Virus record (IMG/VR): IMGVR_UViG_3300045972_000155
Location: 1 to 20,153 of that record
Source of the DNA: a virus
Reading direction: 5' to 3' (one strand)
DNA: 20,153 bases
Both the position numbers and the translations under genes were made by a program. The notes under the pieces are model-generated. The model did not search any database. It was not told where the DNA came from and saw only the letters and a program-made list of their open reading frames with translations. Positions 1-14,747 of the stretch are shown one piece after another (the stretch's first letter is position 1; every line of letters begins with the position of its first letter).

Positions 1-2555
1 GCCTGGGCACTGATCGCCACGGGGCGCCCGAACTGGCCCTGCCGGTCGATGTTCCGCCTGACCGCCTCCTCGATGGGGGTGTGGACATAGACCACATCAA
101 CATTGCGACCGCTTCTCAGGACCGAGTTGATGTTGTCTTGGAGACCCTTGGGATCCGCCGCGTTGGTGTCCAGCACCAGGTAGGCCTGGCTCTTATAGTT
201 CTCAGCGAAGGTGGACTTCCCGGCCGCAGCGTTGCCGACCAGTATGATCACGGGCCGGGTGTCCTCGCCCACCGGGCGGGCCAGCATCTGGTGGAAGGCA
301 TCCACGGCCACCAGGCCCATCCCACCATGCTCCATGGCGTGGAGGTGCCCGAAGGTCGGGTTCCTCTGGACGGTGGGGAGCATCGAGTTGAAATCGTCCC
401 CGTTGATGACATTCGTCGTGCTCAGGTAGTGGTCGATGACCTCCTGCCGGTGGTTGGTGGCCCAGTTGGCCTCCTCAGCGATCCTCTCGCGCAGGGTCGG
501 GGCAGTGCCCTCAGGCACGGGCCCGAGGCCCGGCTGGGCGTGGGCGCCCCGCTCGGGGGCTTCTCCGAACACGATCTTGGGGTCGAAATACTTTACTGCC
601 TCATCGATGGTGATCTTGGATTCCTTCGACAGGTTGTAGTAGACATCGGCCATCAGGGCCGCCATCTCATGGGCCACCTCGGGCGTTTCACCCGCTGCCT
701 CATACCTCGCCTTGAAAGTCTCCCGCGCCTGCTGGTATTCCGGGGTGCTCTGAGTCTCGGCATCCGCGGCTTCCATGAGCTTCGTGAGTTGCTCCGGGCC
801 TCCACCTTTGAGCCATGTCTCCTGCTGCCGGCGGGTCATCTCGTTGGGGAAGGTGTGCCGGTCGGGCGCCAGGGCGTCCACCAGCTTGGGGTCGGTGGTG
901 AGCAACTCATGGGTGGGGAAGATCAGGTCCACGCCGGAGCCCGCGGTCTTGCCGTCTGCGCTTCCGAGGGCCTCATCGATGTTCAGGGCCTTCAGGCGGG
1001 TCGCCACCTCCCTGGGGTTCCCACTCTGCAGCAGTACGGTCTCCACGAACTTGTCCGTGGTGACCATGGTGTTCTCGTATTCGGACCCGGCCAAGTTGGT
1101 CCGCATGGCCTCCTTGAGAACCTCGGGCGAGGCCTTCGCCAACTTGGACCGTTGGGCCGATGACTGAAGACTGTTCAGGGTGTGAGCGGCATAGCCGGGG
1201 AGTTCAAACCCCAGGAAGGTCACCGCCTGGTCCTGGAGGCCCTCCAGCAGGTGGGTCGGCTTGTAGAGGTTGGTGAGCAGGTTCCCAGAGATGGTCATCC
1301 CTGTGGCGAGGCCCAGGGACCTGCCGGCGTAGGTGAGGGTTGGATTGGCGATGGCAGTCCCGGGCGCCAGAAGGCCCCCGGTCTTGAAGCCCAGGTTGAA
1401 CTGGGGGATCTTGCTCATCAGGCCCATGTTCAACAGGCCATCACCCACGCCCACGCCCACGGCCGTCAGAGGGTCGGCGCCCTCCTGCCCGGCGCGGATA
1501 TAGCGGTCCAGGCCCATGCCACCAGAGAACATCAGGGGGGTGACGCCAATCGATGCCGCGGCGCCCATGGCCGCGATCTGGGGGACCATGTTGAGGGTGT
1601 CCCGGCTCAGGAACTCGGCTCCGACACGCTGGGCTGAACCCTGCCCGAACCGGTAGTAGTCGGGGTTCTCGAACTGCTCCTTGGTGGTCTCGTCCACCAG
1701 CATGCGCGGGGGGCCCATCTTGACCTTGCTCTGGAGGGCCGCACCGACAGGGGTGTTGGAATTGGGCGCCAGGGCCCCAGCGAAGCCCTCCCGGGGAGAC
1801 CCGTCAGGATTCTGGAAGGGGTTCTGCAGCCTCTGGGCGATGTTCCCTGCGGTGGTGTCGAAGCTCTGGGAACTGGTCGCCCAGGTCCCGAACTCGAAGG
1901 CGACATCCGCGGCGAGGGAGGGAGCCACCAGGCCGAACCGCTCGACCTGCTTAACCAGGTCTCCGAAGGCGCCCAGGGTGCTGGCGCCAAGGCTGAGCGC
2001 CTCGTTGGTGTGCCGGTTCTGGATGGCGGCCTGCGTCCTGGCGTTGATGATGGCCTGCTTCTTCCCGGGGGACAGGGTCGGGTCGATCCCGCGGACGATG
2101 TCTTCCATCTCCAGCACGGTCGGCGCATCCTGCGCGGCCACCCCACCATCAGGGCTGGCGAAGACCCGCGTGGCGCCGGGGTAGAGGTTCTGAACCTCGT
2201 TGAAGTCGATGGCCGCTAGGCGGGAACGGCGCAGGGAATCCTCGGGCAGGGCGCGGACGGTGTCCACGGGGATGCCCAGCACCCCAGCGATGGCCTTGAA
2301 CTGGGCCTCCTGGGCAGGGTCCTGCATGATCTTCGCGCCCACATTGAGGCGCATCTGGGTGCCCTGGGCGTCCTTCTCCTGGGCCTTCTGGTGGGCCAGG
2401 AACTTGTCCACGGTGTCCTGGATGATCACGGGGTCGATGGGTTTGTCGGGGGCAACAGCAGGGGAAGGCGAGGCAGTGACCGGGGGCGCGACCGGGACAT
2501 CAGTCACCGGATCCGGGAGGTTGATGTCCGGGGAGGCCAGGTTGTCCAGGCTCAC
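1..2555 (-). CDS. Giant internal (ejection) virion protein with C-terminal zeta-toxin-like P-loop domain, partial
   Basis: The frame is open from a GTG start at 2555 to the window edge, 851 codons with no stop, so the C-terminus is missing. AGGAG lies five to six bases before the GTG, and the GTG overlaps the stop of the upstream gene (GTGA). By position, directly after the gp14-like and transglycosylase genes, it corresponds to the largest T7-type internal core protein; this is inference from gene order and size. Residues 1-700 are Ala/Gly-rich with hydrophobic stretches (about 350-450) and match no enzyme I recognise. Near residues 715-728 is NVINGDDFNSMLP, then a Walker A motif GNAAAGKST at 774-782, LVLDTN soon after, and VDVVYVHTPIEEAVRR followed by GRPV near 844. 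This order matches phage and plasmid zeta-toxin-family proteins, which phosphorylate nucleotide sugars or other small substrates. The substrate here is unknown. Confidence 0.85.
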   Translation of the reverse strand, partial: MSLDNLASPDINLPDPVTDVPVAPPVTASPSPAVAPDKPIDPVIIQDTVDKFLAHQKAQEKDAQGTQMRLNVGAKIMQDPAQEAQFKAIAGVLGIPVDTVRALPEDSLRRSRLAAIDFNEVQNLYPGATRVFASPDGGVAAQDAPTVLEMEDIVRGIDPTLSPGKKQAIINARTQAAIQNRHTNEALSLGASTLGAFGDLVKQVERFGLVAPSLAADVAFEFGTWATSSQSFDTTAGNIAQRLQNPFQNPDGSPREGFAGALAPNSNTPVGAALQSKVKMGPPRMLVDETTKEQFENPDYYRFGQGSAQRVGAEFLSRDTLNMVPQIAAMGAAASIGVTPLMFSGGMGLDRYIRAGQEGADPLTAVGVGVGDGLLNMGLMSKIPQFNLGFKTGGLLAPGTAIANPTLTYAGRSLGLATGMTISGNLLTNLYKPTHLLEGLQDQAVTFLGFELPGYAAHTLNSLQSSAQRSKLAKASPEVLKEAMRTNLAGSEYENTMVTTDKFVETVLLQSGNPREVATRLKALNIDEALGSADGKTAGSGVDLIFPTHELLTTDPKLVDALAPDRHTFPNEMTRRQQETWLKGGGPEQLTKLMEAADAETQSTPEYQQARETFKARYEAAGETPEVAHEMAALMADVYYNLSKESKITIDEAVKYFDPKIVFGEAPERGAHAQPGLGPVPEGTAPTLRERIAEEANWATNHRQEVIDHYLSTTNVINGDDFNSMLPTVQRNPTFGHLHAMEHGGMGLVAVDAFHQMLARPVGEDTRPVIILVGNAAAGKSTFAENYKSQAYLVLDTNAADPKGLQDNINSVLRSGRNVDVVYVHTPIEEAVRRNIDRQGQFGRPVAISAQ

Positions 2556-4903
2556 TTGCTCTCCTTGGGCTTGTACTTCTCACCGGGCTTGGCGTTCTGG
2601 GCCGCCTTCTGGCGTTCGTAGAGCTCCCGGCCGCTCAGGGCAGGCGTATAGGGTGCGGGAGCCGCTGGGGTAGGTGCCGGCGCAGGCGCTGGGGCAACTG
2701 GTGCCGGCGCAGGAGGCGGCGGTGGGGCTTCCTTCAGGGCAGCTGCAGCAGCCTCGGCACGGGCCCGTTCAACCGCAAGAACCTGCTGGGTCGCGGCGAC
2801 CAACTGTGCATCAGTGGGGCTCTGCAGTTGCTTTTTGAACTGGGCCCTGATCTGGTCTACCACCGTGGGGTAGGCCTTATTCAGTTCACCGAGATCCATG
2901 GTGACCACAGGCTTGGACTCGTCTGAGAACACATTGTTCTTTACCGTGCCCATCCATGCCAGGGTCTTGTGGATCTGGGTCTCCAACTCCTTGCCCGTGA
3001 ACTTGTGGGGAGGATTCGCACTCAACTGGGCCCTGCGGATGTCATCGTTGACGGCCTTGACCGTGGCCCCATACTTGGCCTCAGCCGCGGTGTCACGCTT
3101 CGCTGGGTCAGTCTGGAATCCGAGGATGTCCAACTGGGGATTCAGAATCCCCTTGATCTCAGGGCTGTTCAGGTCGGACGGCAGGTTGGCGCCTGTGCCC
3201 GTCAGGACCCGCTTCCGCTCGGAGGTGAAGTGCTTGAAGTCATCGGGAGAGAGTTGGGTCTGAAGGTTGCTGAACTGGATGTCGGTCAGCTTCTGGAGGG
3301 TGGCATCGTCCGACAACTGGGCGTAGAGAGGCTTGGGGGTGACGATGTCCTTACCGTTGGCAACATTGGCGGCGAAGGCTTTGACTGTTTCGAGATGGGT
3401 GCCCGGGATGTCCCGCGTGATGGTTGGGTCAACGGCGGCGAAGTTCCCACCGTTCTTGTTGACGGCCAGCATGGTCAAGTTGAGGGCCCTATCCCCACGG
3501 TCGGTGATCGATGTCTTGATCTCGGTGTGGAACTTATCGATCTCCGGTTCCACGGAATGCCAGAGGTTAAGGTCGCCCTTGCAGGCCTCCCATGCTTTTT
3601 TCTTCATCTCATGAATATCAGGGATGGGGGGTGGGATGTACTGGCTCTGCCACTGACCCACGATGCTGGTGACATACTTCTTGGTCTCGGTGTTTTTGGA
3701 TGAGAAGTAGTCGAGCCAGTCATCCGGCTTCCCTGCTTGGGTCGCCATGTCGATGGCCGTGCGGGTTGCCGTGGGGCCTGCATTGTAGGCCGCCAGTGCC
3801 TTCGCGGCATCTCCCTTGAAGTCCTGGAGCTGTTGGTTCAGATAGGCGTTGCCGAGTGCCGTCCTATATTTGTCGTTCTTCTTGAAGAGGTCTGGATCCC
3901 ACTGGAGGCCTGCCATCTTGGCCGCATCGGGGCCCGTTTTCTCCATGACCTGCATGGAACCAAGTGCCCCCTTGGGAGACACGGCATTGGGGTTTCCACC
4001 AGATTCCTGCTGCACCACAAATGGGCCCAGCCCGGCCACGGTGGCGAGTCTTGTGAAGTTGCTCTGGTTGATCGAAGAGTCGTAATCAGCCCGCATACCG
4101 CCAACGATCCCCATGATCGCCGCACCATCCTTGAAGGCCTTGAACTTCGAATCCAAAGTCATGAGCCTGTTGCTATCGATGGACCCGTTTGGCAGGGAGG
4201 CCAGGTAGTCTTTTGCCTGCTGGATGTAGCCCTTCCCGATGCGACCTTCGACCGCATTGAAATGCAGGTTGCTGAGGGCCTCTTTCCTCTTGAAGTCAAC
4301 CTCAGGGCCAGACATTCCAAGTGCGATGCCACTCGCGGCGGCGGCGTTGATGCGCTGGATTTCGGTCGAGATCAGGGTCTCGTTCATTGGATCCGCACCA
4401 ACATTCTTGGGCGCAGACTCCCAGGTTGTGCCGACAATACCTGCTGCATCCGCGCGTACCTGCTGGGTCTGGTGAAACAGGAGCCCATGCTGGAAGTCGG
4501 CGTTGATCATGCCGGCCCGCTTCAGGAACATGGCCTTCTGTTCTGGGTTCTCCAGTTTCGAGGCCAGGTCTTCGATGGTCTGCTGCATCTTCCCGGTGAA
4601 CTCTTCCGAGAGGCTCTGCTTGCTCTCCCGGTTCTCGGGCCGAACATTTGCGCCCATGACCCCGGCGTAGCCGTTCTGGGGGTCCACCGTCAGCTTCACC
4701 TTCTGCATGACGAGCTGGTTGACCTTGTCCTCGGCCGCCAGACTGTTCGCATGCATCTCGATGTTGCGGTACTGCTGGGCCTCACCGGTCAGGGTCTGCC
4801 CCAACTGCTGGGCGGGGGTCGGCAGGTTGCTCTGCACCCGATCAGGCGCAGCCACTCCCTGCGGGACATCAGGGGTTCCGAAGACTCCGACCGTGAAAGC
4901 CAT
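2552..4903 (-). CDS. Internal virion protein with SLT lytic transglycosylase domain
   Basis: A 783-residue protein with a soluble lytic transglycosylase (SLT, goose-lysozyme-like) domain at about residues 293-385. The catalytic glutamate is probably E300 in QQESGGNPNAVSPKG. It is followed by ALGSMQVM (about 313-320) and AAYNAGP (about 371-377), the usual SLT signature set. In T7-type phages such a protein is ejected and opens the peptidoglycan for DNA entry. Unlike T7 gp16, where the domain is N-terminal, it lies in the middle of the chain. The C-terminus (about 728-765) is a Pro/Ala-rich linker. The ATG at 4903 shares one base with the stop of the upstream gene (TGATG), and GGAG lies eight bases upstream. 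The family assignment of the SLT domain is firm; the ejection role follows from neighbours. Confidence 0.92.
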   Translation of the reverse strand: MAFTVGVFGTPDVPQGVAAPDRVQSNLPTPAQQLGQTLTGEAQQYRNIEMHANSLAAEDKVNQLVMQKVKLTVDPQNGYAGVMGANVRPENRESKQSLSEEFTGKMQQTIEDLASKLENPEQKAMFLKRAGMINADFQHGLLFHQTQQVRADAAGIVGTTWESAPKNVGADPMNETLISTEIQRINAAAASGIALGMSGPEVDFKRKEALSNLHFNAVEGRIGKGYIQQAKDYLASLPNGSIDSNRLMTLDSKFKAFKDGAAIMGIVGGMRADYDSSINQSNFTRLATVAGLGPFVVQQESGGNPNAVSPKGALGSMQVMEKTGPDAAKMAGLQWDPDLFKKNDKYRTALGNAYLNQQLQDFKGDAAKALAAYNAGPTATRTAIDMATQAGKPDDWLDYFSSKNTETKKYVTSIVGQWQSQYIPPPIPDIHEMKKKAWEACKGDLNLWHSVEPEIDKFHTEIKTSITDRGDRALNLTMLAVNKNGGNFAAVDPTITRDIPGTHLETVKAFAANVANGKDIVTPKPLYAQLSDDATLQKLTDIQFSNLQTQLSPDDFKHFTSERKRVLTGTGANLPSDLNSPEIKGILNPQLDILGFQTDPAKRDTAAEAKYGATVKAVNDDIRRAQLSANPPHKFTGKELETQIHKTLAWMGTVKNNVFSDESKPVVTMDLGELNKAYPTVVDQIRAQFKKQLQSPTDAQLVAATQQVLAVERARAEAAAAALKEAPPPPPAPAPVAPAPAPAPTPAAPAPYTPALSGRELYERQKAAQNAKPGEKYKPKESK

Positions 4904-5625
4904 CAGGCAACTCCATTGTAACCGTAGGCAGGATCCTTGTAGCCCTTGTAGACCCCGTAGGCCCTGCGCCCTCCGGTGAGGATGGTGTCGAAGGCCGAGA
5001 CCTTGGAGGCGGCATTGGTGGCCTCACCCATGAAGCGGTCGTTGGTGGCCTGGTTCTCGAGGCTCCAGGCCTGGTTCAGGGCCCGGTCGAGTGCATACTG
5101 GGCCTCGAGGTTGGTGCCCACCACGGTCGCATCGCGCACCGTGGACATGGTCCCCGAGTTCGAATCCACCCCCGTGGCGCCCATGATGGCCGCCTGCGTC
5201 CCCGCCGCCTGGCGCCCGCGGCCGGCGACCACATCAGCCTGGGCCACACCCCGGCGCAGCACCTCGTCCGCGGACATCTTGGCGGCATCAGCATTCCGGT
5301 TCCCGATCTCCTTCTGGAGTTTCCCGGATTCGAGTTGCCCATAGGCCGACAGGCCCGTGCCCGCGAGGGACATGCCGGTGAGGAGGGTCTGGCCGGTCAA
5401 GCCGGAGGCGGTTATCGCAGCAGCAGTGCCAGCCTGGGCAACCTCAGTGGCTGCCAGGGCCGCGGAGCCGTAGGCAGCGGAGGTGCTTGCAGCAGCACCA
5501 GCAGCACCCGCGGCAGCAGCGCCTGCGCCTGCAGCTTCGGCTCCAGCCACCACCGGGGTGGCAGCGCCGGCCGTCAAGGCAATGGCAGCGATCCCGGCCA
5601 CAGCCATCAAGGTCGAATTACACAT
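4903..5625 (-). CDS. Ala-rich internal virion protein, T7 gp14-like
   Basis: A 240-residue protein. The first 95 or so residues are rich in Ala, Gly and Thr and hydrophobic, with the potential to enter a membrane. The middle (about 100-200) is polar and probably helical, with QLESGKLQKEIGNRNADAAK and NLEAQYALDRALNQAW. This layout and the position between a gp13-like acetyltransferase and the transglycosylase protein fit T7 gp14-like internal core proteins, which are ejected into the outer membrane at infection. The ATG has GAGGTGA upstream, and its first eight bases overlap the end of the acetyltransferase gene. The assignment rests on composition, size and order rather than on a sharp motif. 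Confidence 0.78.
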   Translation of the reverse strand: MCNSTLMAVAGIAAIALTAGAATPVVAGAEAAGAGAAAAGAAGAAASTSAAYGSAALAATEVAQAGTAAAITASGLTGQTLLTGMSLAGTGLSAYGQLESGKLQKEIGNRNADAAKMSADEVLRRGVAQADVVAGRGRQAAGTQAAIMGATGVDSNSGTMSTVRDATVVGTNLEAQYALDRALNQAWSLENQATNDRFMGEATNAASKVSAFDTILTGGRRAYGVYKGYKDPAYGYNGVA

Positions 5626-6088
5626 GGTTCACCTCAAGGTGGAACGGGTGGAACGGCATGTCCATGACCCCATAGGGAACGGGTGGATCGATGGTGAAAC
5701 CCAGGTAGCGGAGCCACCGGATGGCCCGGGTGTTCCTGGCGTCCACCAGGTTGTAGAGGCGGCCCCACTGGGTGAAGAGCGTCCTGATCGCAGACCTTGA
5801 ACCCTTGATGAAGGCGATGGCATGCCGGTCGATAGCATCCGTGCCTACCATCCAGGGAACCCCGAACCCAGTCAGGACGCTGATCGCGGATACCCCAAAC
5901 ATGCAGACCCGCTCCCCGTCGATCCACCCGGTGTAGGCCTGGGGGCTCATCTTGATGCCATTCAGTAGGCACTCCAGGGGGGTCACATTGGCGATCGCCA
6001 GGAGCTCATCGATGTCACTCTGCCGGGCGTGGGCGGCGATGAATTCAGCGTCCTCAGGTGTTGCCGGGGTGAGCCTATACTCCACCAA
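5618..6088 (-). CDS. GNAT-fold acetyltransferase-like protein, T7 gp13-like (DUF2833 type)
   Basis: A 156-residue protein with GNAT-fold character. It starts YRLTPATPEDAEFIAAHAR, has central strands (AYTGWIDGERVCMFGVSAI) and ends with DARNTRAIRWLRYLGF, the typical acyl-CoA region of GNAT enzymes with Asn and Gly-Phe. Phage members next to gp12- and gp14-like genes are called internal virion protein A (T7 gp13 type). Whether they acetylate anything is not known. The start is non-ATG: TTG at 6088 has GGAGG six bases upstream, and GTG at 6085 has a nine-base spacing. I prefer TTG, but either is possible. It overlaps the end of the tail nozzle gene by 14 bases and the next gene by 8. Confidence 0.82.
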   Translation of the reverse strand: MVEYRLTPATPEDAEFIAAHARQSDIDELLAIANVTPLECLLNGIKMSPQAYTGWIDGERVCMFGVSAISVLTGFGVPWMVGTDAIDRHAIAFIKGSRSAIRTLFTQWGRLYNLVDARNTRAIRWLRYLGFTIDPPVPYGVMDMPFHPFHLEVNHV

Positions 6089-8642
6089 TGGTCACCTCCG
6101 GGATGAGAGCTGTGACGGTGATGGGCAGGGGGTTGGTCTGCCGGATGAACACGGAGCCCGTCTGGCTCATGTTCGTGGAGATGTCGATCTCCACCAGACC
6201 GTCCTGCAGGCGCACCGGGGTGTCGTAGTTCTCATCGCTGCGGGTCTTGGCCTCGAAGAGGTGGTCGGCATCCTGCCCGGCCCAGATCCCGCGGCTTTCC
6301 AGGACCTGCAGTCGCACGGCATTGATGCCCTTCTTCTTGTCGAAGAGGGTCTCTCCCTGGGGGTTGGTGATGTCCACGGTCTGCATGTCGGCTGTGATCG
6401 GGAGGCCGGCAATCTTCTGGTGGGCCGCGGAGGGGAGGGTGATCATGCCGCCGCTCACCACCAGGTTCATGGCGACATACCCATCGAAGAGGCAGGACAC
6501 GGTCTTCCCCTCGAGGTGGCTCAGGCCGCTCATCGTGTTGGTGGCGACCGCATCGTACTGGGTGGCCCCGCAGTCCACGAACCAGGCCTTGGTGATGTCA
6601 ATCACCAGGCGGGTGTTCATGCGCTCGATAAAGCGGCCTGTGGAGCGGTTCACCACCAGGTAGACCGCATCCTCATCGACCCCGTTGAAGGTCTCGCGGA
6701 CGCAGGAGACACTCTCGACCGTGCCATCCGTGTCGTGCCGGTGCCACCCGAAGACCTGCTGCTCACGCATGTAGGTGAGGCCCAGCAGGGCGCCATCACT
6801 GCGGACCATCCAGACGATGCCGAAGGGGTGCTGCTGGTAGGTCCAGTCGATGATGGACAGACCCTCGACCAGGTGATCCGCGAAGACCGTCAGGTCGTTG
6901 CCCTTGAACTGGTTGGTCTGCCACTCGTAGCCGAGGTCCCGGACCACCTGGCCCATGGACTGCACGAAGAGCGCCCCGTCCCCCACCGCTAGGGGCTTCA
7001 GGTCGCTGGACCCGCGGAAGCCCTGGGGCTTGGTGGCGATGTTGCCGGGCGTGGTCACCTCGGACTGACCAGCTGTCAGGGCCCACTCCACCCCGTCTGA
7101 GAGCATCAGCAGCTGGCCCATGGCGATGATGCCCTTGATCGTGTCCACCTGATCCGAGGCCAGGGTGAAGGTCAGGGCATCGTCATCCTGGATGGGGGTC
7201 GAGGTGCTGAAATCGTTGTAGGCGTTGGTCCGGGTCGCCCAGACCGTCTGGGGCTGGGTGGTGCTGCCGGCGTAGACCCGCCGATTCTGGTAGTAGGCCA
7301 CCACCGAGGGCCAACCCTGGTCCCCGCCCCAGGCACCAAGGCGCCAGCGATCCGAGGTCAGAGTGGTCGCCGCAGGGGGCTCGATGGAATCGAAGGAGCT
7401 GTAGTAGGCAGAGAAGGTGGCATAGTCGAGGTCCACCTTGATGGTGTCCACGGTAGGCAGGCTCAGGATGTTCAGGGCCAGACTGGACCCCCCCGAACCG
7501 GTGACAACCACCCGGGCGGCGCCCGTGGTCGTGATCCCGTGCGCCACCTTGGTGATCAGCAGGTAGCCGTCCCCAGCATCAGTATAGGGGACCGCGCCCA
7601 GGGTCACCAGGGTTCCGAACCCCGTGCCCGTGGCCGACAGTTCATCGGGCATGCGGGACAGAATGGTCACTGAGCAGGTCTTGGGGGTGAGGACCGTGTC
7701 GATCCTGGCGATGCCAAACCCGGAATGGAGGTAGAGCCACTGCACCCCGGCATCACCATCCAGCCAGGTGTCGGTGGTATGGGTCGGGCGCAGGGTGCCC
7801 GTGGTGGCCGTGTTCTGCGCCTGGTAATACTTGCCGTCCGAGCGCCGGATGTCTCCCTTGGTGATGCTCTTCTGCACCTCCCAGGGCTTGCCGTAGGTCC
7901 GCTGTTCGATGTAGACCAGGCGGCCGGCATGCTTGGCGGTCGTGAACATGTCCTTGGTCGAGGTCAGGGTGGCAGTGCCTACCGTCTTGTTCACCTGGAA
8001 CGAGAAGGTCGAGTCCAGGTTCATCTCGAGCCAGGGCCCGTTGGTCGAGGCGATGGGCTTCAGGGTCCAGTAGTCCACCCCGATGCGGCTCAGGTTCATC
8101 GGCTCATGCGATGAGTGCGTGATCGTGATCACATCGTTGGACTGGCTGAACTTCAGCAGGGAGAGCTCGGACTGCAGGTAGGGCGTCACCACCTCGGCAA
8201 TGGCACCCGTGGCGCCCACCAGGGCCCACTTGCCCGCGGCGAGATCGGTGGCGAAGGTCCCAGAGGTGTGCGCCACCAGGCAGGAGTAGCTGTTCCCGCC
8301 ATTCGCCCGGCGGTCGTTCACGGCGTAGGCCGTGGCCGTCACCCAGGCGGGGGAGGTCGCCACGACCTGCTGGACCCCAGCGATCACGATGCGGATGTAG
8401 AGGTTGCCCACCTCGAGCAGGTAATTCTGGGTGGGACTGAACCGGAAGGGGATCAGGCGGCAGACGCCCTTCACCCGCACGATGCAGCGGGTCCCTGGGC
8501 GGTTCTTGGCGCCCCCGTAGGGCTGCACGATCATGTTTCGGCAGACCTTCAGGCTGTTCAGGTACCGGGCAAGGTCAGACCTCGACCACAGGTTGGGAGA
8601 CAGTTCCCCACCCGTGAAGGAGTTCTGGAGGATCGAGGTCAT
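6075..8642 (-). CDS. Tail tubular protein B (tail nozzle), T7 gp12-like
   Basis: An 855-residue protein. Its opening, ILQNSFTGGELSPNLWSR followed by LARYLNSLKVCRNMIVQPYG and KNRPGT, is the hallmark N-terminus of the podovirus tail tubular protein B family. Later segments such as RRVYAGSTTQPQTVWATR, IPFRFSPTQNYLLEVGN and RFIERMN are also typical. The protein forms the nozzle below the gp11 adaptor ring and binds tail fibres. Length is in the family range. The ATG overlaps the stop of the gp11-like gene by four bases (ATGA). No strong ribosome site is visible, so translation is probably coupled to the gp11-like gene. Confidence 0.95.
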   Translation of the reverse strand: MTSILQNSFTGGELSPNLWSRSDLARYLNSLKVCRNMIVQPYGGAKNRPGTRCIVRVKGVCRLIPFRFSPTQNYLLEVGNLYIRIVIAGVQQVVATSPAWVTATAYAVNDRRANGGNSYSCLVAHTSGTFATDLAAGKWALVGATGAIAEVVTPYLQSELSLLKFSQSNDVITITHSSHEPMNLSRIGVDYWTLKPIASTNGPWLEMNLDSTFSFQVNKTVGTATLTSTKDMFTTAKHAGRLVYIEQRTYGKPWEVQKSITKGDIRRSDGKYYQAQNTATTGTLRPTHTTDTWLDGDAGVQWLYLHSGFGIARIDTVLTPKTCSVTILSRMPDELSATGTGFGTLVTLGAVPYTDAGDGYLLITKVAHGITTTGAARVVVTGSGGSSLALNILSLPTVDTIKVDLDYATFSAYYSSFDSIEPPAATTLTSDRWRLGAWGGDQGWPSVVAYYQNRRVYAGSTTQPQTVWATRTNAYNDFSTSTPIQDDDALTFTLASDQVDTIKGIIAMGQLLMLSDGVEWALTAGQSEVTTPGNIATKPQGFRGSSDLKPLAVGDGALFVQSMGQVVRDLGYEWQTNQFKGNDLTVFADHLVEGLSIIDWTYQQHPFGIVWMVRSDGALLGLTYMREQQVFGWHRHDTDGTVESVSCVRETFNGVDEDAVYLVVNRSTGRFIERMNTRLVIDITKAWFVDCGATQYDAVATNTMSGLSHLEGKTVSCLFDGYVAMNLVVSGGMITLPSAAHQKIAGLPITADMQTVDITNPQGETLFDKKKGINAVRLQVLESRGIWAGQDADHLFEAKTRSDENYDTPVRLQDGLVEIDISTNMSQTGSVFIRQTNPLPITVTALIPEVTIGGV

Positions 8643-9241
8643 CCACGCACCGTGAGGAAACTGCTCTGGGGGATGTAGTCGTAGGCCTCGTTCAGGCTCT
8701 TGGCCGCGGCCTGGCTGACTGCCATGGCGTAGGCCTGGCGCATCATCTGGGCCATGTCAGGCTTGCCCTTCAGGGGGGTCGCCAACTCGGCGCCCAGGGC
8801 GAAGGCAATGGCCGAGACCACGCTGGCATCATACCTGCCGGTGTCGGTGATCAGCTTGCTGTAGACCAACTCCGCGTCCGGGATGTCGCAGTAGATGACA
8901 TCCTCACCGTTCTCATCGAGCATCCGCTCGAAGGCCACCTTCTCATCGTCCTTCGGGGTCCGATTGCCGGGGGTGACCACGGCGCGGATCTTCAGGCAGT
9001 CGGAGGGGATGGCATAGCCGTAGGCCCACTCTATGGGGAGGGTGATCGCAGGTTGGGCCATCGCCACCCGCATCTTGTTGAACCTCCACGGGAAGTCCCC
9101 CAGAACCTGATCCCGCACGATGGGATACAGGATGCGGCAGAGGTTCCCGAAGAGGTTCTTCTCGTCGGGCCCTGCAAGGGTCTCGGAGTGCCCCACGCGC
9201 AGACCCGCCAGGTTGTAGATCTGCACCAGACTGCTGCTCAT
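8639..9241 (-). CDS. Tail tubular protein A (head-tail adaptor), T7 gp11-like
   Basis: A 200-residue protein. IYNLAGLRVGHSETLAGPDE near the N-terminus, QVLGDFPWRFNKMRVAMAQ, and WAYGYAIPSDCLKIRAV are characteristic of podovirus tail tubular protein A. The protein forms a ring under the portal and accepts the gp12 nozzle. The adjacent gp12-like gene supports the call. The ATG has AGGAG seven bases upstream, partly formed by the stop codon of the preceding gene, nine bases away. The end overlaps the next gene by four bases. Confidence 0.93.
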   Translation of the reverse strand: MSSSLVQIYNLAGLRVGHSETLAGPDEKNLFGNLCRILYPIVRDQVLGDFPWRFNKMRVAMAQPAITLPIEWAYGYAIPSDCLKIRAVVTPGNRTPKDDEKVAFERMLDENGEDVIYCDIPDAELVYSKLITDTGRYDASVVSAIAFALGAELATPLKGKPDMAQMMRQAYAMAVSQAAAKSLNEAYDYIPQSSFLTVRG

Positions 9242-11954: not shown

Positions 11955-12264
11955 TGCTGGCCTCCTTGGTTGGGAGCTGTTCCTTGACCATCTGCCAGTA
12001 GAGATCGGGGCATAGGTCCATCAACTCGTTGTAAAGCTGAAGGCCGACACTGCGCCGGCCCTCGCGGAAGAAGGTTTCACTGGAGCCTGTGAAGGACAGG
12101 GATAGGAACCCGGTGCCCTTGAGGATCCTGCCCACAAGGTTCCGACCCGAGGCGGTCGCCATGACATCCCGGGTGGCGAGTTGCTCCTGGGCCTTGAGCT
12201 TGTCGATGCGGTCCTTGCGCTTGGCCCCGCGGGATTCGATGCGGTCTTCCATCTGCTCGGTCAT
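11947..12264 (-). CDS. Bbp19-like phage protein
   Basis: A 105-residue protein. The N-terminus is highly charged and probably helical (EDRIESRGAKRKDRIDKLKA). The rest carries the conserved set GRNLVGRILKGTGFLSLSF, GSSETFFREGRRSVGLQLYN and LCPDLYWQMVKE, recognisable as the Bbp19-type family found between portal and scaffold genes in BPP-1-like phages. Its function is not established. A head-assembly role is plausible from position. The ATG shares one base with the portal stop (TGATG), so it is translationally coupled to the portal gene. Confidence 0.85.
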   Translation of the reverse strand: MTEQMEDRIESRGAKRKDRIDKLKAQEQLATRDVMATASGRNLVGRILKGTGFLSLSFTGSSETFFREGRRSVGLQLYNELMDLCPDLYWQMVKEQLPTKEASNG

Positions 12265-13499
12265 CAGGCCCCCTGCGACAGGAGGGGCCCGGCCTGCTGC
12301 GCGGCGCCGGCCATGGTCTGGAGCATGGAGGGACTGGAGGTCTGGGTGTCAGCCATGACCTTGGCGGTCTGGGCGCTCTGCTGCAGCTGGGCCATCTGCT
12401 GCTGCTGGGCCTCCTGCTTCTGCCTGGCGTCCCGGATCTTGCCCACGGTCTCGTTGTCGTTCACCAGGTTGGGCGGAACCCCGACCATGTCCGCGTAGGC
12501 GTCGATCACCTCGTCCGTGTTCAGCTTGTCCAGGGCATCGGGCCGCTGGGCAGAGATGCCACCGATGAAGCCGACCAGGCGCTCCACGCCGACCACGCCC
12601 TGCAGCTTCATGGCCTGCGCCATGATGCTGATGTATTCGACCACGATGGGTTGTTTCTCGAGTTCCGGGGGAGGAGGAGGGATCAGGCCTGCCCGCTCCA
12701 GGATGGAGTAAGTGCGGCGGATGATGGGGTCAAGCATCTCGTCGTTCAGGCGCTCGAGCACGGGGCCCATCGCCATCATCTTCTCCTGCTGCCTGGCCTG
12801 GATCTCGGTGGCGGTGACGCCACTCTTGTCGATCTCAGCGATCATCAAGAACAGGTCTTCGAAGAGGCCCTTGCGGATCCGCTGCATGACCAGCTGGATC
12901 TCCCCGCCGATGTATTGGATGTTGGGGTTGATCACATAGGAGGGCTCGACCTTGGCGCCCGTGGCAGTGGACGGGATGAATGTCATCTCGTTGGCGAGGG
13001 TGCCGATGTATTCGTTTCGCAGTTCCGCCGGCACATTCCGGGGGGGCGTGATCAGCATGTCGATGGCCTGCAGCTTGCGCTTCTCCATCTGCTGGAGCTG
13101 TGCCACATCACCCAGGACATCCATCGCGGGGGCATTGCCCCAGGTATCCTCACCAGTCACCCGCCACCGGGGCGCCATGACCGCGAACTCATGGGTGCCC
13201 TTGTATTCCAGGACCTTGGTGGTCTCCTTCTTCTCGTAGTAGACCGACCGGTAGGGCAGGAACTTGGAGTCCAGCATCCCTTCCATGGCGTCCGGGTTCT
13301 CTTCGATGACATGCATCACCCGGACATCCCCGTCCAGGGCCTTGGTCTTGAATTGGCCCTGCACGAAGTCTGAGCAGTTCTCCATGCCGAACTGCTTCAC
13401 CAGCTGGGCCACCGACATCTCGAACTCGCGGAAGCACCCGTTCACATTGCCGCGGGGCCCGATGCTCAGGGTGTAGCTCCCGATGGGAACATGTAGCAC
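12264..13499 (-). CDS. Portal (head-tail connector) protein, C-terminal part of a frameshifted gene
   Basis: This frame encodes about 410 residues of a T7 gp8-like head-tail connector (portal). Recognisable parts include GNVNGCFREFEMSVAQLVKQ, PPRNVPAELRNEYIGTLANE, TATEIQARQQEKMMAMGPVL and LDPIIRRTYSILERAGLIPP. The C-terminal 60 residues are Gln/Ala-rich. The first available start is a GTG at 13499 with no ribosome site, inside the preceding frame, so this is not an independent gene. The sequence from PIGSYTLSIGP continues directly the N-terminal part encoded at 13466-14026. Together they would give about 587 residues, a normal portal length. The portal forms the dodecameric DNA channel at one capsid vertex. 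Confidence 0.9.
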   Translation of the reverse strand: MLHVPIGSYTLSIGPRGNVNGCFREFEMSVAQLVKQFGMENCSDFVQGQFKTKALDGDVRVMHVIEENPDAMEGMLDSKFLPYRSVYYEKKETTKVLEYKGTHEFAVMAPRWRVTGEDTWGNAPAMDVLGDVAQLQQMEKRKLQAIDMLITPPRNVPAELRNEYIGTLANEMTFIPSTATGAKVEPSYVINPNIQYIGGEIQLVMQRIRKGLFEDLFLMIAEIDKSGVTATEIQARQQEKMMAMGPVLERLNDEMLDPIIRRTYSILERAGLIPPPPPELEKQPIVVEYISIMAQAMKLQGVVGVERLVGFIGGISAQRPDALDKLNTDEVIDAYADMVGVPPNLVNDNETVGKIRDARQKQEAQQQQMAQLQQSAQTAKVMADTQTSSPSMLQTMAGAAQQAGPLLSQGA

Positions 13500-14026
13500 C
13501 GGATCACATCCTCATCGTCTTCCATCAGTGCGAAGGCTGAGGTGCCGAAGCACCCCAGGTCCTCGTAGACCACCGGCAGGGTGGTGTAGAGGTTGCTCTT
13601 CAGGAAGGTCTCGGACATCAGGTTGCGGACACTGTCCAGCCAGACCTTAACCGCCTGGTTCTTGCTGAGCTCCGTGTTGTGCGTCCGCAGGTTGAACCAG
13701 GGCCTCGAGGGCGAGGTGATTCCCGACATCATGCCGGCCGACAGGGTCCGAAGAGCCAGGGTGCCCGTGTTGTTGATGATGGCCGTGTTCCTGCGGTTCC
13801 CGAGCTGGTTCTTGTCGCTCACGAAGAACCGGCTGGAGCGGGGAAGCAGATACTTGGACAGGTCCTTCCAGTGCGATAGGAAGGACATCTGGTCCTGCTT
13901 CAGGTTCACATTCCGGCGGTTGAAATACTGGGGCAGGGTCTCCCCCGTGATCGGGTCCACGCCCGGGGCCTTGACATCGCCTTTCTTGGCGACCAGGACT
14001 TTGCCCGCGGCTGCAGTGTCGATCAT
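13466..14026 (-). CDS. Portal (head-tail connector) protein, N-terminal part of a frameshifted gene
   Basis: The 186-residue product ends just after CYMFPSGATP. It contains LPQYFNRRNVNLKQDQMSFL, RFFVSDKNQLGNRRNTAIIN, GMMSGITSPSRPWFNLRT, LKSNLYTTLPVVYEDLGCFG and ALMEDDEDVIRCYMFP, the classical N-terminal half of podovirus head-tail connectors. Homologues read on from YMFP to IGSY, which here is in the other frame. The ATG follows the stop of the 73-residue gene with no gap. On its own this half could not form a portal, so the gene is either broken, wrongly read by one base, or frameshifted during translation. Confidence 0.9.
   Translation of the reverse strand: MIDTAAAGKVLVAKKGDVKAPGVDPITGETLPQYFNRRNVNLKQDQMSFLSHWKDLSKYLLPRSSRFFVSDKNQLGNRRNTAIINNTGTLALRTLSAGMMSGITSPSRPWFNLRTHNTELSKNQAVKVWLDSVRNLMSETFLKSNLYTTLPVVYEDLGCFGTSAFALMEDDEDVIRCYMFPSGATP
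13484..13490 (-). other. Frameshift site in the portal gene
   Basis: On the minus strand the sequence around the junction reads TACATGTTCCCATCGGGAGC. The first frame gives Y-M-F-P-S-G and soon stops; the correct continuation P-I-G-S-Y is in the minus-one frame. One more C in the CCC run would restore one frame. The bases G TTC CCA are a poor match to a bacterial slippery heptamer, so a base-count error or a real one-base deletion is more likely than programmed frameshifting. Confidence 0.85.
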
Positions 14027-14248
14027 CTACGCACCAAGGATGGTCTTGAGACCAGTGGCTGGAGCACCAGGCAGGCCCAATGCGCCCCCGGTGTTGGTGA
14101 TGGTGCTGGAGGACCCGCCAGCCGCTGCCCTGCGCTTGCGGTCAGCATCCAGCGCAGCCTGGACGGCAGGATCCTGGGCGGTGGGCGCCTGGGGTGGAGG
14201 GGTGGCGGCAGGGATCGAGGGCGAGGAGAAGCAGATGTCACACCTCAC
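14027..14248 (-). CDS. Small Pro/Ala-rich phage protein upstream of the portal gene
   Basis: A protein of about 73 residues. The N-terminal half is Pro/Ala-rich (PSIPAATPPPQAPTAQDPAV), followed by AALDADRKRRAAAGGSSSTI and a Gly-rich end with GLKTILGA. Small proteins ending in a similar SSTI...KT(I/L)LG pattern are common beside portal genes in podoviruses; their function is unknown. The stop abuts the portal ATG. The start is uncertain: the listed GTG at 14248 has no ribosome site and lies inside the end of the HNH gene, whose stop is at 14238. The HNH gene may have replaced the original start region. Confidence 0.7.
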   Translation of the reverse strand: MRCDICFSSPSIPAATPPPQAPTAQDPAVQAALDADRKRRAAAGGSSSTITNTGGALGLPGAPATGLKTILGA

Positions 14249-14747
14249 GGTTCAGGTGTGTCCATGTCCTACCAGTCAGGACATCGGACACGGTTACCGG
14301 ATGGACCCCCAATCGCTTGGCCTCGCGGGCAGCGTCGCCTCGCTTGGTGGGTCTTAGCGCAAGGATCCCAAGAACCTGTTCAGTGGTCAGTTTGGAGGTT
14401 GAGTTCCGTTCCCCTTGATGGGCGAGACCAACTTTCCGTCGGGCCTCAGGATTGGACTGCATCGCGCTTCTGCCCTTCCTGCCCATGTCCTGGAGGTTGT
14501 CCTTGCAGGTCCCAAGGAATAGGTGGTCGGGGTTGACACACCCCTTCACATCGCACTTGTGGCATACGAATAACCCATCAGTGATGGGTCCTCGGTGCAG
14601 TTCCCAAGAAAAACGGTGGGCCAAGTAGACTTTTCGATTGAAGGTCAGATGCCCGTAACCGCGGCCATTAAGAACATCACTCCAAAGCCAGCATCCCGTG
14701 GTGGGGCAATAGTGGATCTTGGATTCGAAATGCTCTCGGATGTGCAT
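14238..14747 (-). CDS. HNH homing endonuclease with C-terminal helix-turn-helix
   Basis: A 169-residue protein with an HNH_3-type nuclease core: AHRFSWELHRGPI (about 43-55), VCHKCDVKGCVNPDHLFLGT (about 61-80) and CKDNLQDMGRKGR after it. H63, N72 and H75 are probable active-site residues, with C62/C65/C70 nearby. The C-terminal third (about 117-165, LTTEQVLGILALR ... GVHPVTVSDVLTGRTW) looks like a DNA-binding helix-turn-helix. Such free-standing genes spread by cutting alleles that lack them. By eye it is richer in A and T than its neighbours, as expected for a recent arrival. It separates the lysis cassette from the head genes, and both ends overlap adjacent genes by a few bases. Confidence 0.92.
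   Translation of the reverse strand: MHIREHFESKIHYCPTTGCWLWSDVLNGRGYGHLTFNRKVYLAHRFSWELHRGPITDGLFVCHKCDVKGCVNPDHLFLGTCKDNLQDMGRKGRSAMQSNPEARRKVGLAHQGERNSTSKLTTEQVLGILALRPTKRGDAAREAKRLGVHPVTVSDVLTGRTWTHLNREV

Follow-up and report, generated by a model that had tools for sequence, protein, structure and literature searches.

A zeta-1-type kinase domain predicted in the cargo slot of a giant, probable podoviral ejection protein

What does a toxin-like kinase do inside a giant protein encoded among the structural genes of a phage? The window, that is, the whole stretch of DNA analysed here, is the entire IMG/VR record IMGVR_UViG_3300045972_000155, a linear fragment of 20,153 bases with all its main genes on the minus strand. 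The gene order is terminase, portal (split), scaffold/capsid, tail adaptor, nozzle, an epsilon15 gp13-like protein, a gp14-like protein, an internal protein with a transglycosylase domain and the giant frame, which is encoded among virion and packaging genes. The tail tubular A-like adaptor (8639..9241, minus strand; phrog_394, 2.6e-37) is followed by the tail nozzle (6075..8642, minus; phrog_376, 1e-219), with 37-41% identity to the nozzles of epsilon15-, phiV10- and Carin1-like phages, and by the gp13-like internal virion protein (5618..6088, minus; phrog_308, 2.7e-40), which has a GNAT-like fold going by the epsilon15 annotation. Next are the gp14-like internal virion protein (4903..5625, minus; phrog_418, 9.6e-28) and a Bbp11-like internal virion protein with an SLT transglycosylase domain (2552..4903, minus; Pfam SLT 5.8e-18, phrog_10475 2.6e-49), 28% identical to Bbp11 of phage BPP-1. 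The gene order matches bbp12-bbp11-bbp10 of BPP-1, and the same arrangement is found in Cobetia phage Carin1 and Caulobacter phage JessA.

Two further observations concern the packaging genes. The portal gene (12264-14026, minus) is split by a frameshift, such that the upstream ORF corresponds to residues 4-151 of the Carin1 portal and the downstream ORF to residues 156-556; this may be a natural frameshift or an assembly error. An HNH-endonuclease-like ORF, assigned by eye from the sequence, lies upstream of the portal gene (14238-14747, minus).

The giant frame (3..2555, minus) begins with a GTG; this start and the preceding stop overlap by 4 nt, as do the bbp11 and bbp10 coordinates of BPP-1. 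As the first-pass annotation had reported, it runs from 2555 to the contig edge without a stop, for 851 residues. An LPD22-like region at residues 77-143 (2127..2327, minus) scores 20.2 bits with the Pfam LPD22 model, below the cut-off of 28.6; the same region is clearly over the cut-off in BPP-1, JessA, Carin1 and three related loci, L050, L109 and L206. The visible chain has this sub-threshold match and a kinase in one polypeptide, the rest lying beyond the edge. Because of these three relatives and of the synteny with BPP-1 bbp10, shared with JessA gp039 and Carin1 gp32, we take the frame as the N-terminal part of a Bbp10-like polyvalent internal virion (ejection) protein. The annotation had put the kinase at the C-terminal end of the giant, a placement that does not hold: the record stops inside the domain, and complete or longer relatives continue for about 1250 residues past that point. 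Judged from these sequences, what the window encodes of this protein of about 2000 residues is its N-terminal part with the cargo slot, and the kinase lies in mid-protein.

L050 is 26% identical to the window protein over 834 residues, kinase included (E 3e-36), and L067 is 28% identical over 544 residues; these two and the more distant L206 and L109 join the same N-terminal region to the same kinase. In L206 and L109 the layout is LPD22, then the kinase, then an HESGH peptidase motif and a conserved C-terminal module (about 1250 residues). The giant of L109 is complete, with 2186 residues from its ATG. Upstream of the giant lie a transglycosylase gene in L109 and nozzle, tail adaptor and gp14-like genes in L206. 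A separate peculiarity of L067 is that its rewired zeta kinase shares a single polypeptide with a ParB-like domain and a stretch that matches the C-terminal part of the portal family phrog_21.

We then asked which kind of kinase occupies residues ~690-851 (3..488, minus), a domain that is cut at the contig edge such that its C-terminal third is unseen. The motifs listed by the annotation, NVINGDDF, GNAAAGKST, LVLDTN and GRPV, are present at the residues given there. Of the shuffled versions of the giant protein, 2.8% contain a bare P-loop pattern, which alone is therefore weak evidence; a profile built from 40 phage zeta-like kinases, however, gives the window kinase 27.2 bits, and 2000 shuffles reach at most 9.4. 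This whole-domain score, together with the fold described below, rules out a chance P-loop. When the last 159 residues were searched alone, Pfam AAA_33 matched on the P-loop (4.9e-6) and Zeta_toxin on the part after the P-loop (5.6e-4). The window gave no match at E 0.001 to the Pfam Zeta_toxin model alone, probably because this model expects the canonical order of blocks; in relatives, it aligns only from profile position ~91 onward. Neither PHROGs nor NCBIfam holds a family covering the kinase domain in the proteins tested.

Peptide patterns and tblastn brought up no close relative of the kinase in the IMG/VR, phage and plasmid collections, and a DNA pattern for GNxAAGKST retrieved no relatives. 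The related P-loop TAGGTGAGK, scanned for in IMG/VR, yielded 120 matching stretches, nearly all from one large phage family, whose members are stand-alone proteins of ~300 residues or lie inside proteins of 700-2900 residues and carry, in order, N-T-D-x-A-R-E-L, V-H-E-P, the P-loop, Y-D-T-N and R-A...G-R-T-V-P. Alignment puts the window kinase at only 21-25% identity to the other members. The stand-alone rewired zeta kinases of ~300 residues are common in IMG/VR contigs (L007, L011, L036 and others), several of them near terminase genes, and those tested match no PHROGs or NCBIfam model.

The order of the blocks is informative. In the window the Asp block (NVINGDDF, residues 715-722) precedes the P-loop (residues 774-782), and it does so too in the aligned phage family and in zeta-1, the gonococcal toxin in which two sequence blocks are swapped relative to the streptococcal zeta toxins (Rocker et al., 2018; PMC5923241). 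The profile of the phage family matches gonococcal zeta-1 colinearly across the whole kinase domain (E 1.7e-18). An AF2 model of the truncated window domain (pLDDT 81) retrieves zeta-1 (PDB 6EPG/H/I) with Foldseek at E 2e-7 and a TMq of 0.70, the next matches being at 1e-2, and with VIA-align at Z 14.6 (167 aligned, rmsd 3.6), the next family being at Z 6.5. For the L206 kinase, modelled by AlphaFold at pLDDT 93, the best six matches are zeta-1 chains (TM 0.75-0.77), and canonical zeta and AvrRxo1 score well below zeta-1. We discarded an AAA ATPase, a polynucleotide kinase and PSTK as identities because their folds match less well (Z of about 6 or below), and also the canonical (streptococcal) zeta/PezT class, in which the P-loop comes first, an order absent from the window, where the blocks are reversed. 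On the modelled fold, the profile and the catalytic residues, the window domain is a zeta-superfamily P-loop kinase of the topologically rewired zeta-1 subclass. The zeta-toxin assignment of the first-pass annotation is thereby upheld and narrowed, and a fold lacking the zeta core, which it had named as evidence against itself, is not what the model shows.

Residue equivalences with zeta-1 were read from a MAFFT alignment except in the Arg region. Asp720, in the NVINGDDF block (390..413, minus), is the predicted catalytic residue and corresponds to Asp56 of zeta-1; Lys780, in the Walker A sequence GNAAAGKST (210..236, minus), corresponds to Lys115, which is essential for the toxicity of zeta-1 (PMC5923241); and Asp796, in VLDTN (residues 794-798; 162..176, minus), corresponds to Glu133 and is Asp in 38/38 aligned relatives. 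Further on are VVYVHTP at residues 821-827 and GRPV at 843-846. Within RQGQFGR (24..44, minus), Arg838 and Arg844 lie six residues apart, as Arg175 and Arg181 do in zeta-1, an assignment made by eye on the ungapped IDRQGQFGRP/YKRFNEYGRG pair because MAFFT mis-gapped this region. Catalysis by the window domain is, from these residues, plausible, and the P-loop of relatives is not of the non-catalytic kind that the annotation had considered fatal to its proposal. Lys59 and Asn75, which in zeta-1 contact the lactyl group of UNAM, align with Asn723 and His739 in the window, neither being kept; most members of the phage family have Arg and Ser at these positions. For this reason the UNAM preference of zeta-1 should not be transferred to the window kinase.

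The place that the kinase takes in the giant appears to be exchangeable. The equivalent slot holds PBECR1 in BPP-1, ART-PolyVal in JessA and PBECR5 in Carin1, and a survey of the slots of 80 giants, a tally that includes two loci fetched by the kinase motif (L109 and L044), returned ART (11), MuF_C (6), PBECR1/3/5, LPD3, GNAT, RadC, GGDEF and zeta. When giants were collected by way of their C-terminal module, which avoids this bias, one in 121 had the rewired zeta kinase, near-duplicates counted, which makes it a rare cargo. The sequences suggest a general docking place, a hot spot of enzyme exchange, between the LPD22 region and the peptidase/C-terminal module. Another cargo deserves mention for itself: one surveyed slot matches Pfam GGDEF at 5.5e-17, and in L186, a Bbp10-like giant of 2526 residues, such a motif lies at about residue 1040, within the region of the effector slot, possibly an injected c-di-GMP enzyme (diguanylate cyclase).

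How, then, might the kinase serve the phage? Podoviral proteins of the gp14/15/16 type are packaged and ejected (review PMC8954989), and the synteny with bbp10 together with the gp14-like, transglycosylase and nozzle neighbours is consistent with a giant that is carried in the virion and delivered. We consider it about two-thirds probable that a BPP-1/epsilon15-like podovirus encodes here a giant polyvalent ejection protein, the slot of which carries a zeta kinase that is delivered by the virion and phosphorylates a UDP-sugar or a related metabolite in the new host. We infer packaging, ejection, domain release, activity, substrate, toxicity and benefit of the kinase, and the scheme would run as follows. 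The giant would have its place in the capsid behind the gp14-like protein and the transglycosylase, and would leave it ahead of or together with the DNA; in the new host the kinase would transfer phosphate from ATP to a UDP-activated sugar, or to another metabolite of this nucleotide-linked type; and peptidoglycan or envelope synthesis would be stalled locally or transiently, making entry or the start of takeover easier. We put forward more tentatively the wider proposal that the first enzyme which podoviruses bring into the host is a nucleotide-sugar kinase, acting on the 4'-OH or elsewhere and imposing a transient, antitoxin-free block of envelope synthesis, as one of several exchangeable cargoes of the slot.

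The strongest rival keeps the delivery and changes the target: the zeta-fold kinase of the ejected protein would act, for example, on NAD, on a different nucleotide, on the end of a nucleic acid or on a signal nucleotide of a defence system, and would serve in anti-defence or takeover. The zeta superfamily is diverse, AvrRxo1 (4Z8x), a structural neighbour, is a NAD kinase, and the residues that contact UNAM are missing from the window kinase. Moreover, other enzymes of the slot, the PBECR nucleases and ART, are predicted to target host macromolecules and not the wall (Iyer et al., 2017; PMC5512222). However, the closest fold by a wide margin is that of a UDP-sugar kinase, zeta-1, which acts on the 4' hydroxyl (PMC5923241), and the catalytic Asp and both active-site Arg of zeta-1 are kept, such that we regard a target outside peptidoglycan synthesis as rather unlikely.

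An action late in the producing cell, where the kinase would weaken wall synthesis and aid lysis and its packaging would be incidental, appears improbable. The kinase belongs to the block of structural genes, and zeta-1 drains wall precursors and its expression lyses E. coli (PMC5923241); an antitoxin gene, moreover, is not seen beside the giant of L109, which would suit lysis as well. But the slot is common to other effectors of the ejection protein, and this is better explained by delivery. In L109 the giant is directly flanked by the transglycosylase gene upstream and a fibre/spike-like gene downstream, with no small same-strand gene of antitoxin size between it and these neighbours, which fits a delivered effector better than an addiction module; in the window, no antitoxin gene lies on the visible side of the giant, the other side being beyond the contig edge. 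A toxin-antitoxin or addiction module fused by chance to a virion protein would account for the homology to the toxin of such a pair, but with the kinase fused within a giant protein of the structural cassette and the L109 flanks as described it is very improbable, and a toxin-antitoxin operon was considered and rejected.

Under the preferred reading of a virion-delivered kinase, a biochemically solved toxin subclass, the rewired zeta-1, is now linked to the slot in which podoviral ejection proteins carry their cargo, and the role of giant internal proteins in the host can be put to the test, with an active site that is defined and a lysine mutant as control. The first-pass annotation had seen here a candidate for a new system; this goes too far, for zeta-like kinases are already listed among the polyvalent proteins, which are predicted to be injected and whose zeta-like kinases are predicted to weaken the wall (PMC5512222), and the rewired fold has been described as well (PMC5923241). 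Searches of the open-licence literature found no report of the rewired zeta subclass in a BPP-1/epsilon15-type ejection protein.

Compared with gonococcal zeta-1 (6EPG/6EPH/6EPI), the window kinase shares the Asp-block-then-P-loop order, the fold (Z 14.6), the catalytic Asp, the Walker Lys and the two active-site Arg at equal spacing, but it lies inside a giant phage protein, no antitoxin or OB-fold domain is seen with it, the UNAM-contact Lys59 is absent and the identity is ~20%. With the canonical Streptococcus zeta toxins (1GVN, 2P5T) it shares the kinase superfamily and equivalent catalytic Asp and Lys, whereas in those the P-loop is first in the chain, the epsilon antitoxin is adjacent and the structural match to the window model is only Z 6.5. 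BPP-1 Bbp10, JessA gp039 and Carin1 gp32 have the same position after the transglycosylase, an N-terminal LPD22, for which the window's match stays below the cut-off, and the variable slot, which is filled by PBECR1, ART-PolyVal and PBECR5, respectively, and by the zeta kinase in the window. The polyvalent zeta proteins of Iyer et al. (2017; PMC5512222) are large mobile-element proteins with predicted injection in which a kinase is fused to LPD modules and to others of peptidase type, a layout that the relatives predict for the complete window protein too; the paper names conjugative elements and MuF fusions, and here the carrier is a Bbp10-type podovirus ejection protein and the kinase belongs to the rewired subclass. 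The window protein is thus an addition to a class already described, that of injected phage proteins with several weapons, and does not found one of its own.
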